This document shows, one piece after another, positions 3,972 to 13,823 of a stretch of 25,599 nucleotides of DNA. The stretch lies in NCBI GenBank assembly GCA_017462505.1, contig JAFTQY010000078.1, positions 1-25,599 on the forward strand, in the 5' to 3' direction. The first letter of the stretch is position 1. Each line of letters opens with the position of its first letter. The translations under genes and the position numbers were made by a program. Source of the stretch: Clostridia bacterium (GTDB lineage: Bacteria > Bacillota_A > Clostridia > Christensenellales > Borkfalkiaceae). The notes under the pieces are model-generated. The model ran no database searches and was not told the DNA's origin. It saw only the letters and a list, made by a program, of their open reading frames with translations.

Positions 3972-5587
3972 TTATTTTTTAAGCATTACTGCGCTGTGGG
4001 CAGGAATTACAAACTCGCAAACGCCCCTATCCACGTCCGTCATGTCCGCGTTTTTGTACACGTCCACGCTTTGCTCCGTTGTCACCGTGATCGGCGCGGC
4101 ATTGTAATTCACCGCAAATTGCGCCACGTCCCCCTCGTATTCAAACGCGCTCGTGAGTACCTTTTCAACGTACAGCGTGCTCTTGTCTTCCAAAACAAAG
4201 CTGTTTTTGCCTACCGTATGCAAAGGCAACGGCTTTACCATTCTGCCAAGGTGCAAAAAGCTCTTGCCGCCCTTTTGCCGCCAAGCGTTGAGATTTTTCA
4301 GCATGGCGTAGGCATGCCCTTTATCCGTATGTATTTTAAAACAGCTACCGCCCCACGCATACCCGATATTCTGCTTGTCGTCGATCACCGCCGTCAGCAT
4401 ATCCCCGCAAACAAAAGAGTGCGCCACGCGGTACGGATAATTGTATTCCTCGTACGAGAGCATCATACAAATTTGATTGCCCATGAAATTGTTCACGTAT
4501 TCGTGGTAGATATACGAATACAGGGGCACGGGCAAGCCGATATAATAGCACAGCTCAAAGCGGTTGTCGCTGAATTGCAATTCGGAAAGGAACGGGTCTG
4601 CCGACGCCGATTCGCAACCGAGCAACACCTGCCCCCGATCGATACGTTTCAACAAAGCCAACGTTTCTTCCGCCTGCCATTTGCCGGGCGCGGGTACGTG
4701 ACCGTGCTTGTCTCTGTAACAAAAATAACTGCCGCCGCCGTGGTTTTGGTCCATCGCCTGTACGTAGTCCACGCCGCTTTGACAAAGCTTGGTCAGCTCC
4801 TTGCCGAAAATCTCTTTGGATTTTTCGCACGCGGGGCACACGTCAAACCCGCGGCGTTGGGACGTGCAGATTTCGCTCTTGATCGTGCCGTCCGTGTCCG
4901 TGCACATGATCGTAGAAAGGTTTTCCCTTTCGTATTCCGCCTCGCGGTTGTATTCTTGTCCCCCGTCTGGGTCAAAATGTTTTCACCGTACAAATAATTT
5001 TGCGGTTCTAATACCTTGCCGAAAATGGAATGGTTCGTCCAAACCTTAACGGTGGGCACTTTGATCGCCGCCGTCTTTTCGTTCCCGCACAAATATACAA
5101 AGCTCACTTCATCGCCGTTGTTGGCTACGCTCGGGATAAATTTATCCCCCGATTTATACGTCTTAACGCCGTTTTCGTCCGTGATTTCCACGTCGCAAAG
5201 TTTCCGTACGAGCGAGCCGCTCGAATAATCGACGGTATAATTGCCGCTTGCGCCGCTTACCGTTACGCCGTGCGCCGCGGTCAGCTCCCCGAGCTTCGTT
5301 TCCGTCGCCCCCGCGTTATCGAGCGCCGCCGTCAACGCAGGCAGCTCCTTTTCCGCACGCACCCACAAAATTTCTTTCGCCACGTTGCCGCAATAATCCT
5401 TTGCCTCGTACACGATTGCGTACGTGCCCGCTTTCTTCGTTTCAAATCTGCCGTTTTTGATATCCAGCATCACGGGCGACGTGGACGCGTAATTATACCA
5501 CGCCGAAACGCTAACCTCGCAAACGCCGCTCACTTCGTCGCGCGCCGCCGCACTCAAAGCCAACATTCTTTTCCAGTTTTTCTTCAT
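3972..5587 (-). pseudogene. Frameshifted, internally deleted secreted glycosidase-like gene (DUF6259-like)
   Basis: Two overlapping open frames form one broken gene. The 5' frame (from ATG 5587, RBS TTAGGAG) starts like a signal peptide (MKKNWKRMLALSAA) but runs straight into the end of an Ig/HYR-like domain (GTYAIVYEAKDYCGNVAKE), so the hydrophobic core and the domain start seem deleted. It reads on to about 4965 and then enters a nonsense Arg-rich tail. The original frame resumes after the run of five C at 4960-4964 and continues to 3972 with MCTDTDG, DYVQAMDQNHGGG and HGHVPAPGKW, which resemble the TIM-barrel part of DUF6259-type glycosidases, then a C-terminal beta domain. The N-terminal half of the barrel is missing. 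One extra base in the C run would join the frames. The stop is TAA. Confidence 0.8.
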
Positions 5588-6296: not shown

Positions 6297-6331
6297 AAAA
6301 AAACGGCGTTTGCAATAATGCCTACGCCGTT
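6297..6331 (-). terminator. Intrinsic terminator of the AAA+/FtsK operon
   Basis: On the minus strand AACGGCG (6331-6325) pairs with CGCCGTT (6308-6302) around a 16-nt loop and is followed by seven T. It lies 15 bp after the stop of the FtsK-like gene and ends the operon. Confidence 0.82.
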
Positions 6332-6345
6332 CCGTTTTTTTGCCA

Positions 6346-8073
6346 TCATCTTTTGAATTTTTTTATAAATTCTTCCTTAGATATATATACCGATCTCGGT
6401 TTTCCGCCCTCGGCTGAGGACGTGTATCCGCTCTTTTCCAGCCACGAGAGCACCTTTGTCCCCTCGGCAAAGGAAAATCCGCACCGCCTTTGCAATAAGG
6501 ACAGAGAAACTTTCCCGTTTTCAACGGCAAATTCCAGCCCCTCTAAAAAGATAGAATCCGCTTTTTCCTGTTCGTTTTCACCGTCAAACAGCATTTCAAA
6601 ATCCTCTTTCGTGAGCAACACCTCTCGCGTTTTTGCGCCGTTGAACGGGGATACGTACCCCCTCTCTTCCATCCATTGCATAATTTTTCCCGCGCGGTTG
6701 TACCCGACGTTACACTTCCGCTGGATCATGGAAAGGGACGCGCTCTGCGCCTCGATCACGCACCGCAACGCCCGCACGTATTCCGCCGCTACGGGAACGC
6801 AAGGCTCTTCTGTCAATTCGGCGAAAAGGTCTACGTCCATGTCCCTTTGCGGTTTCGATACCTGCTCTTCCCCGCCCTTGATGAACGCAACAATGCGCCC
6901 GTCCTCTCGGTAGGGATAGTTTTCCGTCACGTATTTTTCCAAATTGAACGTTTCCGCGCCCGTAACGCAAGCCGCTTGCAACCGCCACGCCTTTTCCCCC
7001 GATCTTAAAAAGAGAAAATCGCCGTACCCAAGCAATTTTTCCGCGCCGCCTTGACCGATCGTGCTCCTCGAATCGCTCTCTTCGTCCACGGCAAAGCCCA
7101 TGCGCGTGGAAAAGTGCTCTTTTAAATCCTCCGTCAGTACGTCCGCGCAGGTGCTCGCCGTAGCGGCAAACACGTGCACGCCGATCACGCCCGATATCCG
7201 CAGCAGCATGCACAGCTTGATTTCAAACCATGCCCGATCCGCCGTCATCAAATCCTGCAATTCGTCGATAACCAACAGCACTATCGGCATTTTTTGTTTG
7301 CCGTATTTTTCCGCGCGTTCGTTGTATTCTCTTACGTCGCTGACGCGCTCTCCCGCCCGTCTTAGCTCGTCAAAGCAATTCAAACGGCGGGTCGCCTCGT
7401 CCAACAGCCACTCTACGGCGCGGCGGATTTCCGCAAGCTCCCTTAACGCCCCGCCCGTGACCAAATGCGGAAAATCGTCGTATTCGGCAAAATCCCACTT
7501 TTTCGTATCCACCACGACCGCCCGCAGCTCCCACGGCGCTTTTGTATAAAACAAACCGCACAGCACGCCGTGCAAATAGGTGCTTTTTCCCGCGCTTTCC
7601 GTGCCCGTGATCAGCACGTTTCCTATATCTTTCAAATCGGCGATCACGCTTTTATGCGCCTCGTTCTTGCCGATCGGCACGGGATACCTGCGCTCTCCCA
7701 CGTTTTCAAACGCGACCTCGCGCGTCAGCTCCCCTAATTCCACAAAAGCCCGCCCCTCGCTGGGCACTTCCACGCGCAGACTGTTTTCTTCCTGATCGAC
7801 CACACAGCGTATCGGCTCGTTGTTTAAATAGATCTCGCATGCCCGCGCCAAGGTCGCCGCGCGCGAATCCGTACACCGCCCTCTGAGCATAAACGCGTAC
7901 GTCGTCACCGACGGCCCGTAAAAAACGGAGAGCGGCTGCGCGTCTATCCCATAACGCCGCGTCAGCTCCATAATCTGTTCCTGTATCTCTTCGCTCTCCA
8001 ACATGTCCTCATAGGGAATACTCTCCTCGCACGCCAACAGCTCGCTCGGCACGTAATATCTTTTATTCGCCAT
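6346..8073 (-). CDS. Soluble FtsK/SpoIIIE-type DNA translocase with tandem gamma domains
   Basis: A 575-residue protein. Residues about 30-130 resemble the FtsK alpha/beta domain (SVFYGPSVTTYAFML). The RecA-like motor follows: Walker A GTESAGKS at 157-164, Walker B LLVIDE with D270/E271, and the family signature DSRSTIGQGGAEKLLGYGD near 335-352. The C-terminus has two consecutive winged-helix gamma-like domains, about 429-492 (SLSMIQRKCNVGYNRAGKIM) and 505-569 (SLSLLQRRCGFSFAEGTKVL); ordinary FtsK has one. There is no membrane segment, so it is not a septal pump of the usual type. The ATG at 8073 was chosen for AAAGGAGG 9 nt upstream. It is the last gene of a four-gene operon, 84 bp after the phosphoesterase. 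The stop is TGA. A DNA-translocating role is well supported; the cellular job is not known. Confidence 0.9.
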   Translation of the reverse strand: MANKRYYVPSELLACEESIPYEDMLESEEIQEQIMELTRRYGIDAQPLSVFYGPSVTTYAFMLRGRCTDSRAATLARACEIYLNNEPIRCVVDQEENSLRVEVPSEGRAFVELGELTREVAFENVGERRYPVPIGKNEAHKSVIADLKDIGNVLITGTESAGKSTYLHGVLCGLFYTKAPWELRAVVVDTKKWDFAEYDDFPHLVTGGALRELAEIRRAVEWLLDEATRRLNCFDELRRAGERVSDVREYNERAEKYGKQKMPIVLLVIDELQDLMTADRAWFEIKLCMLLRISGVIGVHVFAATASTCADVLTEDLKEHFSTRMGFAVDEESDSRSTIGQGGAEKLLGYGDFLFLRSGEKAWRLQAACVTGAETFNLEKYVTENYPYREDGRIVAFIKGGEEQVSKPQRDMDVDLFAELTEEPCVPVAAEYVRALRCVIEAQSASLSMIQRKCNVGYNRAGKIMQWMEERGYVSPFNGAKTREVLLTKEDFEMLFDGENEQEKADSIFLEGLEFAVENGKVSLSLLQRRCGFSFAEGTKVLSWLEKSGYTSSAEGGKPRSVYISKEEFIKKFKR

Positions 8074-8157
8074 ACCCTTATTCCTCCTTTCGCCTTTTCC
8101 AAAGCGGACAAGCGTTACCCCGCCCGTGCGTATCGCCCGCAACGTAAATCATTTGGT

Positions 8158-8688
8158 CTATCCCTGCTCTTTAAAACGGCGGTTATTTTCCACCAGCTCG
8201 TCTATCGTCACGGGTCTAAATCCGTTGACGTCCACCCCCGCGTTGAAAGCGCTATCGTTTGCTTTAAGCAAGCCCCAGTAGGGCATGTTCGTCCGCGCGT
8301 GAGTATGCCCGTGTATCAAATATTTCCCCTCGTAATCCATCATCGGAAAATGACAAAGGGTCGCTTTCCCCTTGCCCGTATTGATCACCGCAAGCCTTTC
8401 CACGCTTTCAAAATACGCGGAAAGCTCCACCTTATCCACCCACGTCCGATCGTGATTGCCCAAAATCAAATGCTTTCTTCCACGCAACCGTTTTAAATAC
8501 GCTTCGGGCGGTTTTTCCGCTTTAAAGAGCAAATCCCCCAAAATATACACGTGATCGTCGCGATGTACCGCGCCGTTCCACCCCTCAATCAAGCTCTCGT
8601 CCATTTCTTCCACCGAGGAAAACGGGCGGGAACAAAGCTTGATCACGTTTTCATGCCCAAAATGCAAATCGCTTGTATAAAAAATCAT
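8158..8688 (-). CDS. Calcineurin-like metallophosphoesterase
   Basis: A 176-residue protein with the full set of metallophosphatase motifs: D7-L-H9 and H12 (DLHFGHENV), G51-D52, G77-N-H-D80, H113 and H126-G-H128-T-H. This is the compact single-domain type (COG4186-like) that hydrolyses phosphodiesters or phosphomonoesters with two metal ions. The substrate is unknown. The ATG at 8688 has AAAAAGGAGG at good spacing; the in-frame extension upstream is Arg/Ala-rich and lacks motifs. The stop is TAG. It lies between the winged-helix gene and the FtsK-like gene, which suggests a nucleic-acid or nucleotide substrate, but that is inference. The 109 bp gap before it contains a GC-rich hairpin (CGTC-ggaaaa-GACG with flanking pairs) that might tune expression. 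Confidence 0.9.
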   Translation of the reverse strand: MIFYTSDLHFGHENVIKLCSRPFSSVEEMDESLIEGWNGAVHRDDHVYILGDLLFKAEKPPEAYLKRLRGRKHLILGNHDRTWVDKVELSAYFESVERLAVINTGKGKATLCHFPMMDYEGKYLIHGHTHARTNMPYWGLLKANDSAFNAGVDVNGFRPVTIDELVENNRRFKEQG

Positions 8689-8797
8689 ATTCTTCCTCCT
8701 TTTTATCGCGGCTTTGCAATAAGGCACAGCGCCCGCCGCGACAGACCGTCTTTTCCGACGTCCCGCCGCGGCGTATCGGCGCAAAGCTGCAAAACCG

Positions 8798-10195
8798 TCA
8801 ATCGTCCTCGCCGCGAAGCACGCGCTTAAAGTTTTCATACTCCGCCTCGGTGATCGTTTCAAAGGTAGCGACTACCTTTTCATACGCACGCCTTTCCGCT
8901 TCGTCCCCACATTCTATCGCCGCCGCAAGTAACACGCGCGCGTGCGTTTTCGCCTCGTCAAAGGTTTTCCCCTCCTCCGAAACGATCTTTTTGAGAACCG
9001 CCTTATAGCGTGCGTCCGTTTCAACGCTTTCGCTCGCGTCCCCTTCCGAATGGATACTTATACACCGTTCCATCGCCGAAAAGAGCCACATAAAGGACAT
9101 GAACGCGCCGTTTTCGTCGCGTAAGCGAATACAGAAATCCTGCTCGTCCTCCCGTATTTTGATCGCATAATCGTCCAAAACGTATTGCATGCGCTTTTGC
9201 AGTCGCTCGTATTGTATCATGTGGCGGCTGCGAAGATAAGCCGTCGTACCCCCCATATCGCCGAGCCAAACGGCGTTATCCTCTACAAAAAGCTCAAAGC
9301 GCATCTGGGTATCGTCGGGATAGCTAATCCCCGAATCCCATATCGCAGACAGGCTGTCCTTGTTGAACGAAAAATCCTTACCGATCGTCCGCGCGTAGCC
9401 TCTAAGCCGCTGGTATATCTCGTATTCCTCTATCGTAAGCTCGATCAACGGATCGATTTCGTATTCGCCGTCGTCGTCCTCGATTTCGTCCGTTTCGTCC
9501 TCTTCGTCCTCGTCGTCGGCTATATTAGGGCGGCGGTTGTGTATTAAATCGCGGAAAAGCTCACGGGTAGAACGCTGCTTGCCGTGCCTATGCGCCGCTT
9601 GCAGCCGTCTTTCCAAATAGGCGTTTCGGATTTTTTCTTCCTCTTCGTCGTCCTCGTCATCCTCGTCGTTTTCTTCCTCGAAAATTTCGCTCGGGACAAA
9701 AGCCGCGCCGTTATGCATGCGCGCCATATAGCTCTTTTTCGCGCCGACGGTAATTTTCGTATCCTCGTCGTCGTCCAAAAAGCTGTATCTCTTCTCTTCC
9801 TTGGCGGGCTTTTCCGCAGGCGGGCGACCGGTAAATTTGAAAAGAAATTCCATTCTCTTTTCCAAAACGCCGTCCTGTACGAGGGTATTTACAAACGCAA
9901 GCGCCTCTTTTTCGCTCATTTCCAGCTCCGCTTGGATCGCGCCCAAGGTCGTTTTTTGCGCCGCTTTACAATATCCCCGCAAAAATGCGTCGATCTTCGT
10001 CTTGGTTTTGGATTTGCCCACGTACGCGTAAACAACGCCCAGCGTATAATCAAAAACGCCCTCTTTTACCAGCTCGAATGCCACCTTTTCCGCGTTCCTT
10101 TCCGTCACGTCAAAGCCCTCTGCGATCGAGGGCAGCGTAACCTCTTTCGCCGTTGTTATGTAAATATATAATTCCTGTTTGAAATCCTTTTTCAT
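8798..10195 (-). CDS. Acidic protein with two N-terminal winged helices, function unknown
   Basis: A 465-residue protein. The first 130 residues are two similar winged-helix-like units (ELYIYITTAKEVTLPSIAEG and IDAFLRGYCKAAQKTTLGAI), each ending in a beta wing. An acidic low-complexity stretch follows (about 165-250, with runs of Asp/Glu such as ENDEDDEDDEEEEK and DDEDEEDETDEIEDDDGE). A C-terminal alpha/beta domain reads RFELFVEDNAVWLGDMGGTT; a distant DUF1828-like relationship is possible but unproven. The upstream protease gene ends at 10198 and overlaps an alternative ATG at 10201 (ATGA). I prefer ATG 10195 because the GGGGGGAG site is 9 nt from it and only 3 nt from the other. The genes are surely co-translated. 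It could be an adaptor or substrate-delivery factor for the protease, or a DNA-binding partner of the FtsK-like motor. Confidence 0.85.
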   Translation of the reverse strand: MKKDFKQELYIYITTAKEVTLPSIAEGFDVTERNAEKVAFELVKEGVFDYTLGVVYAYVGKSKTKTKIDAFLRGYCKAAQKTTLGAIQAELEMSEKEALAFVNTLVQDGVLEKRMEFLFKFTGRPPAEKPAKEEKRYSFLDDDEDTKITVGAKKSYMARMHNGAAFVPSEIFEEENDEDDEDDEEEEKIRNAYLERRLQAAHRHGKQRSTRELFRDLIHNRRPNIADDEDEEDETDEIEDDDGEYEIDPLIELTIEEYEIYQRLRGYARTIGKDFSFNKDSLSAIWDSGISYPDDTQMRFELFVEDNAVWLGDMGGTTAYLRSRHMIQYERLQKRMQYVLDDYAIKIREDEQDFCIRLRDENGAFMSFMWLFSAMERCISIHSEGDASESVETDARYKAVLKKIVSEEGKTFDEAKTHARVLLAAAIECGDEAERRAYEKVVATFETITEAEYENFKRVLRGEDD

Positions 10196-10197
10196 GA

Positions 10198-13074
10198 TCA
10201 TATTCTCCCCCCGTCCGATGGGTCAACCTCGCGGAAAAAACTTTCCAGCTCCTGTTTGTTCATGCTGTTTGCCTTTAACAGCCGTTCCACCAGCCCCTCT
10301 AAAAGAGGACGGTGCTCTTCCATCATTTTCACGGCGCGATCGTACTGCTCCGTCAATATCCCGTTCACCGCACGGTCAAAACGCTGTCTGCTCTCTTCCG
10401 AGCACGCCTCGCCCGCGCCCAACAAAAAGCCCTCCTGCATTCCGTAATCGTCCACGATACGCTTTGCCCAAGCCCGCGCCTGCGCAAGATCGGCGCTCGC
10501 GCCCGTGGTCAGACCCTTTTCGCCGTACGCCAAACGCTCCGCCGCCCTGCCGCCAAAGCATACGCAAATGCGGTCGAGCAATTCTTGGTATGTATAATCG
10601 AACTTTTCCTCGTCGTTTGTAAATTGCATATACCCGCCGTGGCTCCCGCGCGAAATGTTCGTCACGTACGAGGGTATCTCCCCCGTTAAATAATGCGCCA
10701 AACAATGCCCGCATTCGTGATAGGTGGTCTTGCGGATCGCCTCGTCCGACCAAGTCCGCTTTTCGCCGTAGGTAAGAAGCTCAAACGCCTCTTCAAAATC
10801 TTTCAGCGTGGGCACTTTTTCCTTGCAATTGCGCTTGGTCTGTTTGACGAGCTTAGCAAGATCGGCAGGCGATTTTCCCGCCGTACGCTCCACCAGCGTA
10901 CGGATATCCCCGTCCGAGATCTTTACGCCGTATTTATCCATGTAATGGAGCAATATTTCAAAACGGTCGTCCGCCTTGGGCAGCTTGATCTCCACAATAC
11001 GGTCAAAGCGGCGCAAAAACGCCTTGTCCAGCTTTTCAGGCGGAAAATTCGTCGCCGCGATCACAAAGGCGGGGCGTTTGTCGTCTTGACGGAAACCGTC
11101 CATTTCCGAAAGGAACGCGTTTTGTATGCGGTCGCTCGATTCGGCGCTCCCGCCGATGCCCCGCCCGCGCGGTTTACCGAACGTATCGATTTCGTCAATG
11201 AACAAAATTGCGCCGTATTTGCGGGCAAGCTGAAAAACCTTGCGGACGATTTCGCTGCTTTCCCCTACCCATTTCGACTCGAATTCCGTTGCGTTTTTCT
11301 GAATGAAAACGCTCCCCGATTCGTTGGCGATCGCTTTGGCGATCAAGGTTTTCCCCACGCCCGGCTCACCGTAGAATAAAATGCCGCGCGGAATATCGTA
11401 CCCCTTTCGTTTGTATTCGATCGGGTTTTTGAAAATTTCGATAAGCTCCTTGACCTCTTCCACCGTTTCCCTCGCCCCTTTCACGTCCGAAAACTTCACG
11501 TCGGGGATCTCGTGCGCGGCGCACAATTCGCGCTCGTCCGAGGCGTCCACCGCCTTTTCCTTGCGGTAATTGCACGCGGTTGCCGTCACCGTCAAGCCGT
11601 TGCCCTCTTCTTCCACAGCGTACACGGTATCGTGATTGATAACGCAGCTCTCCCTTGCCAACTGCGTCACGGCTTTCGACAGCTCGATCGTCTCCGCGAT
11701 CCCGTTGAGCCAAGCCGAAAAATCTCCGTCCTCTTCCGCGTTGTAAAAGCCGCTGACCCCCTCTTTGTTATAGAGCTTGCGCTCTACGCGGGTCTTTTTT
11801 TGGGTCAGCGAAAAGGCGTAGATGGGCACTTCCTCGTCCCGCTGTGCCTCACGGATCATCTGCAACCCCTTTTTGCACTTCGTTTCGTCTACGCTGATGA
11901 GCGTCGCGTCGTAATCCAAACTGGAAATCCGCGTCCCCTCTTTAACGTAGCAAACGTCCAAGCGAGGACAGCTTTCCACGCGCTCCCGCTCCTCTTCCGC
12001 GCAATAAACCGCCACGCGGTAACGCTCTTCACCGTGGAAATATTGCGTAATTTTTTCGTCCTTGCCGTAATCGAACGAAAGGCGGATATTTTTCAGTCGG
12101 CGCAAGCCGTCCTCGCCCCGTTCGCAAAGCAACGCCGCCGCGTTTTCCAAATGCTCGCTAAGGGTCGCCTCCGCCGCCGCAGAGATATTTCTTGCGTCCG
12201 CCTGTCCCCCTTTGGAAAAGAGCAGGCTACGCGCAAACAAGTCCCCGTCGTAATCGAGCGCCAAATACGGATAGCGGTTCTCTTTCCAATCCTCGCACAG
12301 CTTTTTCGCCTTTAACTGCGCAATGGCGCAAAGATCCCGCCCGCTCAATTTATTGAACGGTATCAACGTGCCTCTTGCAAGGCGTGAAACCATCGCGGGC
12401 GTAAAACGGTGGGTATCCGTATCGGGGTTCACGTCCTTTGTCAACGCGTTCAAAATCGTGCTTTGGGGCAACGTCGCATAATTGTAACGGTATAAGCTCT
12501 CGTACAGCGCGCTCCCTGCGTTGGATGTAATGATGATGATCACGTTGCGGAAATCGATTTCCTCGTCGTGGTATTTATCGTGCAGAAAACCCGTTTCAAA
12601 CAAGGGCTGAAAGCGGTTTTTGACGTTTGCGTGGGACAGATCGAATTCGTTCAAAATGAGTATTCCCGCTGGCATTTTTTTGACCGGCCCTGTGATTTCG
12701 CCCTCCGCCGCCTCTTTATAGCTCTTGTTGATACCGTCGGGGTTGTGCCCCTCCCGCTCGGTGTAGCGGGTACAGTCGATACAGTAACAGGGCAAACCTA
12801 ATTCTTGCGCGGCAATGATCGCCGATTCCGATTTTCCCACGCCCGGCAATCCAAAGGCAAAAATGAGCGCTCGCGGACCTTTTTGCGGATAGGGTTTCGT
12901 GGCGTACGCCGCCAAAATCGCGCTTTTCAACCGATCCGCCGCATAATCCTGCCCGATAATGTCCCTCGTCAACCTTTCCCGCACACATTCTGCGCGCAGA
13001 TAGGTTGCGTACAAATAATCCATTTCATGATTGCTTACAAAAGTTTCTTCCTTTTTTTCGTTGTGTTTCTTCAT
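10198..13074 (-). CDS. Soluble Clp-type AAA+ / classical AAA / M41 (FtsH-type) metalloprotease fusion
   Basis: A 958-residue multidomain protein. Residues about 30-330 are a ClpB-D2-like AAA+ module: Walker A GLPGVGKS at 75-82, Walker B ILILNEFD with N142/E143 (Asn for the usual Asp), then DFRNVIIIITSNAGS as in HSP100. Residues about 350-460 look like a receiver-like alpha/beta domain without clear phosphorylation residues. Residues about 525-770 are a second AAA module: Walker A GEPGVGKT at 569-576, ILFIDEID with D627/E628, a SKWVGESSE pore loop and LRRFDR. The C-terminus is an M41 peptidase with zinc motif HECGH (786-790) and TTGASADL giving the third ligand D862. FtsH's two membrane helices are absent. 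The ATG at 13074 has GGGAGGAAG upstream. It is the first gene of the operon with the winged-helix protein, phosphoesterase and FtsK-like motor. Regulated proteolysis is likely; substrates are unknown. Confidence 0.92.
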   Translation of the reverse strand: MKKHNEKKEETFVSNHEMDYLYATYLRAECVRERLTRDIIGQDYAADRLKSAILAAYATKPYPQKGPRALIFAFGLPGVGKSESAIIAAQELGLPCYCIDCTRYTEREGHNPDGINKSYKEAAEGEITGPVKKMPAGILILNEFDLSHANVKNRFQPLFETGFLHDKYHDEEIDFRNVIIIITSNAGSALYESLYRYNYATLPQSTILNALTKDVNPDTDTHRFTPAMVSRLARGTLIPFNKLSGRDLCAIAQLKAKKLCEDWKENRYPYLALDYDGDLFARSLLFSKGGQADARNISAAAEATLSEHLENAAALLCERGEDGLRRLKNIRLSFDYGKDEKITQYFHGEERYRVAVYCAEEERERVESCPRLDVCYVKEGTRISSLDYDATLISVDETKCKKGLQMIREAQRDEEVPIYAFSLTQKKTRVERKLYNKEGVSGFYNAEEDGDFSAWLNGIAETIELSKAVTQLARESCVINHDTVYAVEEEGNGLTVTATACNYRKEKAVDASDERELCAAHEIPDVKFSDVKGARETVEEVKELIEIFKNPIEYKRKGYDIPRGILFYGEPGVGKTLIAKAIANESGSVFIQKNATEFESKWVGESSEIVRKVFQLARKYGAILFIDEIDTFGKPRGRGIGGSAESSDRIQNAFLSEMDGFRQDDKRPAFVIAATNFPPEKLDKAFLRRFDRIVEIKLPKADDRFEILLHYMDKYGVKISDGDIRTLVERTAGKSPADLAKLVKQTKRNCKEKVPTLKDFEEAFELLTYGEKRTWSDEAIRKTTYHECGHCLAHYLTGEIPSYVTNISRGSHGGYMQFTNDEEKFDYTYQELLDRICVCFGGRAAERLAYGEKGLTTGASADLAQARAWAKRIVDDYGMQEGFLLGAGEACSEESRQRFDRAVNGILTEQYDRAVKMMEEHRPLLEGLVERLLKANSMNKQELESFFREVDPSDGGRI

Positions 13075-13226
13075 AATTCTTCCTCCCAAACACACAGCCC
13101 GATCCGTTTCCCTAACGGACCATATTTTTGCTACTTTCCCCCCACGGCGGCGTTTGAGCTCCCCCTGTGCCCCGCCGTTTTTGCCGACATATTCCGCAAA
13201 AATCGACGTTTTTTGCAATCGAGCGC

Positions 13227-13268
13227 AAAAAAAACAGAGACCCGTCCAAACATGACAAGCCTCTGTTT
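13227..13268 (-). terminator. Strong intrinsic terminator of the small upstream transcript
   Basis: On the minus strand AAACAGAGG (from 13268) pairs with the complementary strand ending in CTCTGTTT (13232-13239). With G-U pairs the stem reaches 15 bp around a 7-nt loop, and eight T follow. It isolates the small unit upstream (13366-13823) from the protease operon, whose own promoter must lie between 13075 and 13225. I could not find a convincing one there. Confidence 0.85.
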
Positions 13269-13365
13269 CCATTTAAGCTGGCGCATCTTTGCTTGTGTTT
13301 ACCGTCGTTAAAACCTGAAAACACTGCGCTACGATGCACGTTATTCCATTGACCGCTCTACGCCG

Positions 13366-13794: not shown

Positions 13795-13823
13795 ATTATA
13801 GCACTAAAATCCTTGCTTGTCAA
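13795..13823 (-). promoter_or_regulatory. Consensus promoter of the small transcription unit
   Basis: On the minus strand TTGACA (13818-13823) and TATAAT (13795-13800) are spaced by exactly 17 bp. Both hexamers are perfect. The layout is the same as in the promoter at 3870-3898. Confidence 0.88.

Follow-up and report, generated by a model that had tools for sequence, protein, structure and literature searches.

Do the four genes that occupy positions 6346-13074 of this Clostridia bacterium contig (JAFTQY010000078.1, assembly GCA_017462505.1; the window, that is, the whole stretch of DNA analysed, spans 25,599 nucleotides and is probably a complete contig, P0004 being listed on one of 25,599 bases) simply lie next to one another, or do they encode a single machine that brings proteolysis to DNA? 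The four open reading frames (ORFs), here called P0001 to P0004, are adjacent and all on the minus strand, and we put at roughly one in two the probability that they jointly specify a single AAA+ proteolytic unit directed at DNA. As judged from sequence comparisons, the protease, P0002 and FtsK-type elements recur together, and the recurrence of similar gene sets in related gut bacteria suggests a protease working on DNA. Starting from the first gene, the operon comprises:

10198-13074, minus strand: P0001, 958 amino acids (aa), an AAA+ zinc protease with a Clp-type AAA domain, a receiver-like domain, an FtsH-type AAA domain and an M41 peptidase, by profile scans
8798-10201, minus strand: P0002, 467 aa, an acidic protein with predicted winged helices, by ORF and predicted structure
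8158-8688, minus strand: P0003, 176 aa, a calcineurin-like phosphoesterase (Metallophos, 8.5e-6; phage family phrog_547, E 1e-47)
6346-8073, minus strand: P0004, 575 aa, a soluble motor of the FtsK type (alpha and beta) that carries a pair of gamma domains, by profile and structure matches

The first-pass annotation of this DNA had described four same-strand genes with tight junctions, and both genes and junctions agree with it: P0001 and P0002 overlap by 4 bp, P0002 and P0003 are separated by 109 bp, and P0003 and P0004 by 84 bp. The families it had named (HSP100-type AAA+, M41, calcineurin-like phosphoesterase and FtsK/SpoIIIE) are likewise recovered by the profile scans; what it overlooked is the receiver-like domain in P0001, a 24-codon ORF in the 84-bp gap and a hairpin in the 109-bp gap.

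To judge from its motifs, P0001 looks like an active, soluble unfoldase with two rings, to which a zinc peptidase is joined in the same chain; a receiver-like domain separates the rings. Its frame is open to position 13272, but the ATG at 13074 is preceded 7 nt upstream by GGAGG; the protein matches AAA_2 (6e-20), AAA (4.5e-44) and Peptidase_M41 (6e-32), and its domains are placed as follows:

12379-12855, minus strand: first ATPase domain (Clp-type, AAA_2), residues 74-232, in which Walker A is intact and Walker B has Asn in place of Asp
11653-12021, minus strand: receiver-like (CheY-fold) domain, residues ~352-474, with Asp396 at the phospho-acceptor position, by profile and fold comparisons
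10984-11382, minus strand: second AAA domain (FtsH-type), residues 565-697, by profile and conservation
10243-10752, minus strand: M41 peptidase domain, residues 775-944, with HECGH at 786-790 and Asp862, by profile and conservation

Conservation was assessed on a set of 91 distinct proteins from which those under 900 aa (e.g. those of loci L094, L126 and L149) had been excluded, and the catalytic HExGH and Asp are retained in all 91. The receiver-like domain shows the (beta-alpha)5 fold and an Asp at the end of beta3, the latter in 80 of the 91 proteins, and the profile alignment sets its fgsee opposite the vddE of YycF, where a phosphorylation-competent receiver has an acidic pair after beta1. 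With FtsH the protein shares an AAA domain joined to an M41 peptidase with HExxH and the third-ligand (zinc) Asp, but it differs in having neither membrane anchor nor FtsH_ext (PF06480 gave no match to P0001, and no hydrophobic stretch was found in it) and in carrying an extra Clp-type ring and the receiver-like domain; it reaches 302.9 bits against the FtsH equivalog, whose cut-off is 600, and aligns to FtsH and AAA proteases at ~35% identity across 47% of its length. By hydropathy only, no 19-residue window exceeds 1.6 in P0001, P0002 or P0003. With HSP100/Clp and ClpP it shares the Clp-type AAA_2 domain and the plan of a two-ring unfoldase plus peptidase, and Clp_N matches a long relative, L154 (6e-5), whereas in P0001 the peptidase is a covalent M41 domain, the second ring is FtsH-type, a receiver-like domain is inserted and the profile scan gave no match to Clp_N (nor was there one at 1e-4 in the relative L127). 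The best PDB matches of its AAA parts are Cdc48/p97-type proteins.

P0004 matches FtsK_gamma (1e-32, in two stretches), FtsK_SpoIIIE (1.5e-23) and FtsK_alpha (4e-5), its residues 26-487 match the FtsK structure 2iut, and its motor motifs (GTESAGKST, VIDE) are intact. In FtsK it is the gamma domain that reads KOPS (the KOPS/SRS polarity sequence), and P0004 has two gamma domains:

6613-6780, minus strand: gamma domain 1, with the GYNRA recognition-helix motif kept, as in 2iut
6376-6549, minus strand: gamma domain 2, with a diverged recognition helix in which GYNRA is not kept

The alpha, beta and gamma domains and the Walker A and B motifs are thus common to P0004 and FtsK/SpoIIIE, whereas the absence of an N-terminal membrane part, the doubled gamma domain and the sharing of an operon with a protease set P0004 apart. 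The N-terminal membrane domain PF13491 gave no match to P0004, the FtsK equivalog scores 126.4 of 1566 bits and, by hydropathy only, four 19-residue windows exceed 1.6, the highest (1.78, at residue 287) lying in the motor part. Chromosomal-size FtsK, in frames of 1,044-1,360 aa, is present in seven of the eight relatives searched, and G002 has the operon copy only. P0004 also resembles 157 phage records, all below 60% identity, which we read as generic FtsK similarity.

P0002 matched no Pfam family above cut-off in the profile scans, and its domains are assigned, with modest confidence, from a structural model that places two winged helices at ~7-123, an acidic linker of low confidence at ~130-255 and a DUF1828-like domain at ~257-384, followed by a helical tail; the predicted fold of the DUF1828-like domain may resemble that of secretion chaperones (type III secretion chaperone-like). 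Its identity to relatives is 45% (P0071), 35% (the protein of locus L083) and 26% (L084). A relationship between its C-terminal part and the YbjN-like proteins that neighbour other proteases of the family was considered and is unsupported, the profile comparison giving 2.9%.

The midpoint-rooted tree of the 91 proteins places P0001 in a clade of seven with support 1.00 (the window and loci L083, L084, L243, L248, L252 and L254), whose members are shorter at the N-terminus, and in six of these seven loci the protease gene and the one after it share 1-17 nt. In three (the window, L083 and L084) the following gene is clearly P0002-like, and locus L084 has the window's order with one extra gene: protease, P0002-like protein, double phosphoesterase, ADP-ribosylglycohydrolase (PF03747, 4e-70) and an FtsK with two gamma domains. 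A motor is found in three of the seven loci (the window, L084 and L254, the last also with gamma), L248 carries a gamma domain within its P0002-like protein, and the stretches examined of L243 and L252 hold neither. In genome G001 (locus L083) the protease is followed by a P0002-like gene, a phosphoesterase, a 143-aa protein, an ASCH gene and, cut off where the contig stops, a gamma-domain gene of which the start is present; a second contig of this genome carries the end of an ASCH gene, a gene for a 152-aa protein built from two gamma domains, and unrelated genes beyond it. The sequences are not identical, the first version passing straight to the second gamma domain, and may represent strain variants; in both cases the gene begins, and on the second contig also finishes, without a motor. 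From these contigs G001 seems to keep the FtsK-gamma domains only, without the motor. Leaving aside the window's own proteins, the best relatives of P0002 and P0004 are P0071 and P0072; each is listed on a 16,754-bp contig (source lgn), and the two likely lie together on one contig, which would make a further locus with both. An observation apart is that in L254 a 305-aa protein (12332-13249) is encoded upstream of the protease, in which Pfam sees a weak HTH only (0.019) and whose N-terminal part may, by eye, be macro-domain-like.

These loci indicate, at the level of gene content, that the core is the protease and a P0002-like protein, usually accompanied by FtsK-gamma domains, and that the motor is frequent but replaceable. 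The association of protease, winged-helix acidic protein and FtsK-type reader or motor that the first-pass annotation had proposed is upheld by the L084 order, by P0071 and P0072 and by FtsK fusions in two genomes (see below), but its four-gene combination is not a fixed set, inasmuch as the motor is present in only three of the seven loci and the phosphoesterase in five (the window, L083, L084, L248 and L254), in differing sequence clusters. The check it had proposed, whether the four genes co-occur and keep their order in relatives, comes out positively for L084, apart from the extra gene; four other clade loci (L083/G001, L243, L248 and L252) lack the motor in the stretch examined.

The adaptor-like protein also occurs outside this clade. 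A search of 396 genomes (the order of G001) with a four-row P0002 alignment gave P0002-like matches in 17 at E<=0.01, many of them weak; in two genomes, G398 and G240, the P0002-like part is fused to an FtsK motor, and several other P0002-like genes come after a VirD4-type ATPase (T4SS-DNA_transf, 3.9e-50). The VirD4-type gene is preceded by N2, a 540-aa protein without a Pfam match that often follows ClpP (CLP_protease, 5e-62) and that is present in 36 of the 396 genomes at E<=1e-50, six of the genomes found having also supplied query rows. Of 42 rows at E<=1e-40, 38 were taken (four second fragments, in G153 and G241, being set aside) and L106 was added; L214 and L227 yielded no N2 ORF and L198 and L232 are one locus, so that 37 loci remain. 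The next same-strand gene after N2 is VirD4-like in 30 of the 37, as against none of the 514 other genes in these loci, and 27 of 31 N2-VirD4 junctions overlap (one locus being listed twice); ClpP lies at most three genes upstream of N2 in 20 of 37. An FtsK/P0002 fusion lies within three genes of N2 in one locus (L188), and six have neither VirD4 nor FtsK beside N2 (L199, L219, L220, L223, L224 and L230); three of those six belong to G258, G306 and G368, which have a VirD4-like gene elsewhere whose next gene is at best weakly P0002-like. A count of P0002-like genes within three genes of N2 (20 of 37) uses a 15-bit threshold that acidic stretches can reach and is not relied on. In L204 and L106 a window-type protease lies near an N2/VirD4 cassette. 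On this comparative evidence the same kind of adaptor and pump occurs with two different proteases, and this is our main reason to regard protease, adaptor and pump as a system; that the ClpP cassette and the window-type protease cassette do the same job is something we infer. Two remoter relationships drew little or no support from profile comparisons: N2 as a dead Clp-type AAA (no support, probability 2% or less) and a link between the VirD4 profile and that of P0004 (weak, 2.5%). Upstream of N2/VirD4 cassettes, large surface-type proteins with a C-terminal region that is Hint-like by eye are encoded in L200 (1381-6375), L191 (13719-17000) and L203 (1735-7605).

The protease itself is spread more widely. 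A one-genome-per-species scan with a motif-specific piece of it, of which the best 80 of 96 confirmed stretches were kept, returned records that are mostly titled Clostridia and nearly all metagenome-assembled, together with others titled Dysgonamonadaceae, Tannerella, Deltaproteobacteria, Deferribacteraceae, Treponema, Anaerolineaceae, Synergistaceae, Opitutaceae and Pirellulales. These and two viral loci make up L081-L162 (82 loci), and for 75 of the 80 loci from genomes, but for neither of the viral ones, a fusion ORF could be selected; in L086, L115, L118, L147 and L158 the ORF picker took a longer ORF on the opposite strand, and the L086 genome does hold the fusion. FtsH-sized frames accompany the fusion in the same genome in four of six searched. 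Among viral contigs, the whole-protein alignment (A1) gave at least 600 stretches, 80 loci of which match almost wholly in the FtsH-like half, the M41 piece (A3) found two relatives among 21 stretches, neither with a fusion ORF by profile, and the P0004 search found no relative (3 stretches).

Contexts separate along the tree. In 94 distinct loci, many of them cut by contig ends, the neighbours at a distance of up to five genes in either direction comprise kinase/PP2C (23), YbjN-like (15), RyR/TrkA-like (13), Card1-like (6), P0002-like (3) and FtsK (3) genes. A 32-member sister clade has a kinase or PP2C gene within five genes in 22 cases, and at L127, which belongs to it, FHA-kinase, PP2C and kinase/beta-propeller genes are confirmed; other clostridial groups have RyR/TrkA-like, YbjN-like or Card1-like neighbours. 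These last names rest on matches below the Pfam cut-offs (RyR 0.006, TrkA_N 0.006, YbjN 0.04, Card1 3e-5), although one Card1-like neighbour is also PADLOC CARF4 (3e-34). At L106, a protein with a TIR domain and many TPR repeats (10647-13103) lies directly downstream of the protease relative, and an RyR/TrkA-like gene lies upstream.

If the operon does encode a single unit, P0002 would be the adaptor: its winged helices, together with the P0004 gamma domains, would dock the complex on DNA, and its DUF1828-like domain would pass substrates on to P0001. The FtsK motor would move DNA, or track along it, and dislodge bound proteins, which P0001 would unfold and degrade, with the receiver-like domain as a gate on the protease. 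The phosphoesterase would play an accessory part, perhaps by removing a nucleotide signal or an adduct. Complex formation, DNA tracking, the stripping and degradation of DNA-bound protein and receiver gating are thus proposals, and possible purposes include the clearing of DNA-bound protein, regulatory proteolysis docked on DNA and defence. More tentatively, and short of an even chance, the data may reveal an undescribed class of proteolysis-coupled DNA pumps, whereby a P0002-like adaptor joins a hexameric DNA or protein pump of FtsK or VirD4 type to an ATP-dependent protease (either ClpP with the 540-aa partner or the single-chain Clp-receiver-FtsH-M41 protein) and the complex tracks DNA, stripping and degrading bound proteins under a receiver-like switch.

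Several observations weigh against a single DNA-directed unit. The motor is missing in some clade members, so that DNA translocation is not essential to all versions, and 84 of the 91 tree proteins fall outside the window's clade, their recognised partners being mostly of other families. Within the clade, the gene after the protease is P0002-like in L243, L248 and L254 by layout (a winged-helix-like start and an acidic stretch) and by weak profile matches that lie mostly within the acidic stretch, and L252 has no P0002-like neighbour. Beside VirD4, P0002-like matches above 100 bits occur in only five N2 loci (L189, L191, L193, L200 and L209), three of which helped to train the profile, and the rest are weak. 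The P0002 model is itself poor (predicted local distance difference test, pLDDT, 65.6; alignment of 4 sequences); DUF1828 (PF08861, gathering cut-off 22 bits) is passed by the L189 protein only (32.8 bits), L084 reaching 18.3 bits and P0002 and the L243 protein giving no match. The Walker B Asn of the first ring of P0001, found in only 2 of the 91 compared proteins, P0001 included, may weaken that ring, and the 15 Foldseek rows for the receiver-like model include two GTPase-like folds, KRas and the p190RhoGAP pseudoGTPase.

A rival reading is proteolysis for regulation or under stress, with DNA serving as no more than a docking place: the winged helices and gamma domains would recruit the protease to promoters or to the nucleoid, where it would degrade regulators, and motor activity would be secondary. 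The gamma-only gene in the motor's place in G001, the gamma domain within the P0002-like protein of L248, the receiver-like domain and the kinase/PP2C genes near 22 of the 32 sister-clade proteins (families checked at L127) are all compatible with this possibility, which we nonetheless consider rather unlikely, since the motor motifs of P0004 are intact and pumps recur beside P0002-like proteins. Somewhat more doubtful is anti-phage or anti-plasmid defence, whereby the DNA reader or motor would recognise or grip invading DNA, the protease would destroy phage or host proteins and nucleotide-handling accessories would serve signalling or damage control. The patchy presence of the genes (protease in 27 of 396 genomes at E<=1e-110; P0002-like in 17) could indicate as much, but equally fits niche adaptation; the neighbourhoods with Card1/CARF-nuclease-like (6/94), RyR/TrkA-like (13/94) and, at L106, TIR-TPR proteins point the same way, as do the PADLOC candidates matched by the DUF1828-like part of the L189 protein (PDC-M24B, 4e-7) and by the L084 phosphoesterase (PDC-S10, 1.5e-7) and the accessory ADP-ribosylglycohydrolase, ASCH and acetyltransferase genes. 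Nevertheless, the RyR, TrkA_N, YbjN and Card1 names are sub-threshold, the profile scans recognised no toxin or nuclease family in the four genes, and the four window proteins yield no match to a known defence system in its entirety, the matches to IetA (P0001 residues 507-750 only), SspH and mad8 being confined to the generic ATPase part.

A chance adjacency of an ordinary protease operon and an unrelated FtsK gene would account for those loci of the clade whose examined stretch contains no FtsK motor (L083/G001, L243, L248 and L252), but it sits badly with the L084 order, the P0002-like/FtsK fusions, the probable shared contig of P0071 and P0072 and the gamma domains at the end of the G001 operon, and we deem it very improbable. 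Hardly any more credit, indeed slightly less, is due to a conjugation or mobilisation module with an FtsK/VirD4-type coupling protein and a winged-helix accessory DNA-binding protein. Coupling proteins do work with accessory DNA-binding proteins in the TcpA/TcpK and TraD/TraM systems, and the relatives offer both a VirD4-family match (T4SS-DNA_transf) and a winged-helix partner. The relaxase PF03432, however, is present in only 4 of 20 relatives' genomes and on none of the locus contigs (which are fragments, making this modest evidence), Rep_trans (PF02486) occurs in none of the 20, P0002 has no match at E 1e-3 in 72,556 plasmid records, and no secretion-channel family was seen among the 9 window proteins scanned, channel genes not having been searched in the relatives; the relaxase, Rep_trans and plasmid results lower rather than exclude a conjugative role.

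Returning to a DNA-directed proteolytic unit, its parts have counterparts in known systems. In the MoxR-vWA-FtsH ternary conflict systems described by Kaur et al. (2020, PMC7159879), both AAA domains are FtsH-type, the first is inactive and MoxR and vWA partners are present; P0001 shares with them a double-AAA protein, an FtsH-type second AAA and conflict-type neighbourhoods, but its first AAA is Clp-type with Walker A intact. The MoxR and vWA families gave no match in the 9 window proteins scanned. IetAS likewise unites an AAA ATPase of the same broad type with a protease, although the peptidase of P0001 is M41 and part of the same chain, and there is no subtilase among the four genes. In that system IetS is the subtilase protease that works with the IetA ATPase. 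In p97/Cdc48, which acts with SPRTN at DNA-protein crosslinks, a two-ring unfoldase serves proteolysis on DNA, as P0001 might; this is an analogy only, given that in P0001 the protease belongs to the same polypeptide and that the operon includes a DNA motor.

Energy-dependent proteases and DNA pumps are textbook machines, and we found no description in the open-access literature of a conserved gene set that pairs the two. The full-text search recognised no account of the protease architecture or of the protease-pump gene sets within that open-access scope, which leaves out most subscription papers. Should the proteins assemble into a single complex, bacteria would have an equivalent of the p97/SPRTN-type removal of proteins from DNA, or else the complex would embody a new principle of defence. 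The protease family, with Clp-type ring, receiver-like domain, FtsH-type ring and M41 peptidase in one soluble chain, in records from several phyla and in distinct types of neighbourhood, looks like a new architecture and is of interest independently of the DNA reading, since it offers a testable regulatory domain and occurs in Syntrophaceticus schinkii Sp3 (L154), a named strain.

Two terminators, which the first-pass annotation had placed on either side of the operon, both fold with T tracts; a simple consensus terminator scan of the window listed neither, and both came from folding. They and the elements in the gaps are:

13227-13268, minus strand: upstream isolating terminator, with a T tract (-22.5 kcal/mol, z -5.3, in the stretch around the site)
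8689-8797, minus strand: hairpin in the 109-bp gap (-56 kcal/mol, z -5.0), without a T tract, its core occurring once in the window
8078-8152, minus strand: ORF of 24 codons (MIYVAGDTHGR...) in the 84-bp gap before the FtsK gene, by ORF reading
6297-6331, minus strand: downstream terminator, with a T tract (-18.8 kcal/mol, z -3.5, in the stretch around the site)

On the minus strand the promoter scan found nothing promoter-like in the interval from the upstream terminator to P0001, and hence a single transcript is presumed. About 530 nt upstream of that strong pre-operon terminator there is a 12/12 sigma-70-type promoter match with a TG extension (13795-13823, minus strand), which could drive a small gene or a leader through which read-through would control the operon. 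The Rfam and tRNA scans of the window gave no match. The only PDB match of P0003 is the hypothetical protein aq_1665. By eye, the 24-codon ORF resembles the phosphoesterase starts of L083 and L187, and from its reading frame it looks like the start of a second phosphoesterase gene that has been mostly deleted. Downstream of the operon, at 3972-5587, two overlapping minus-strand ORFs show weak matches to an Ig-like domain (3e-4) and to DUF6259 (3e-6).

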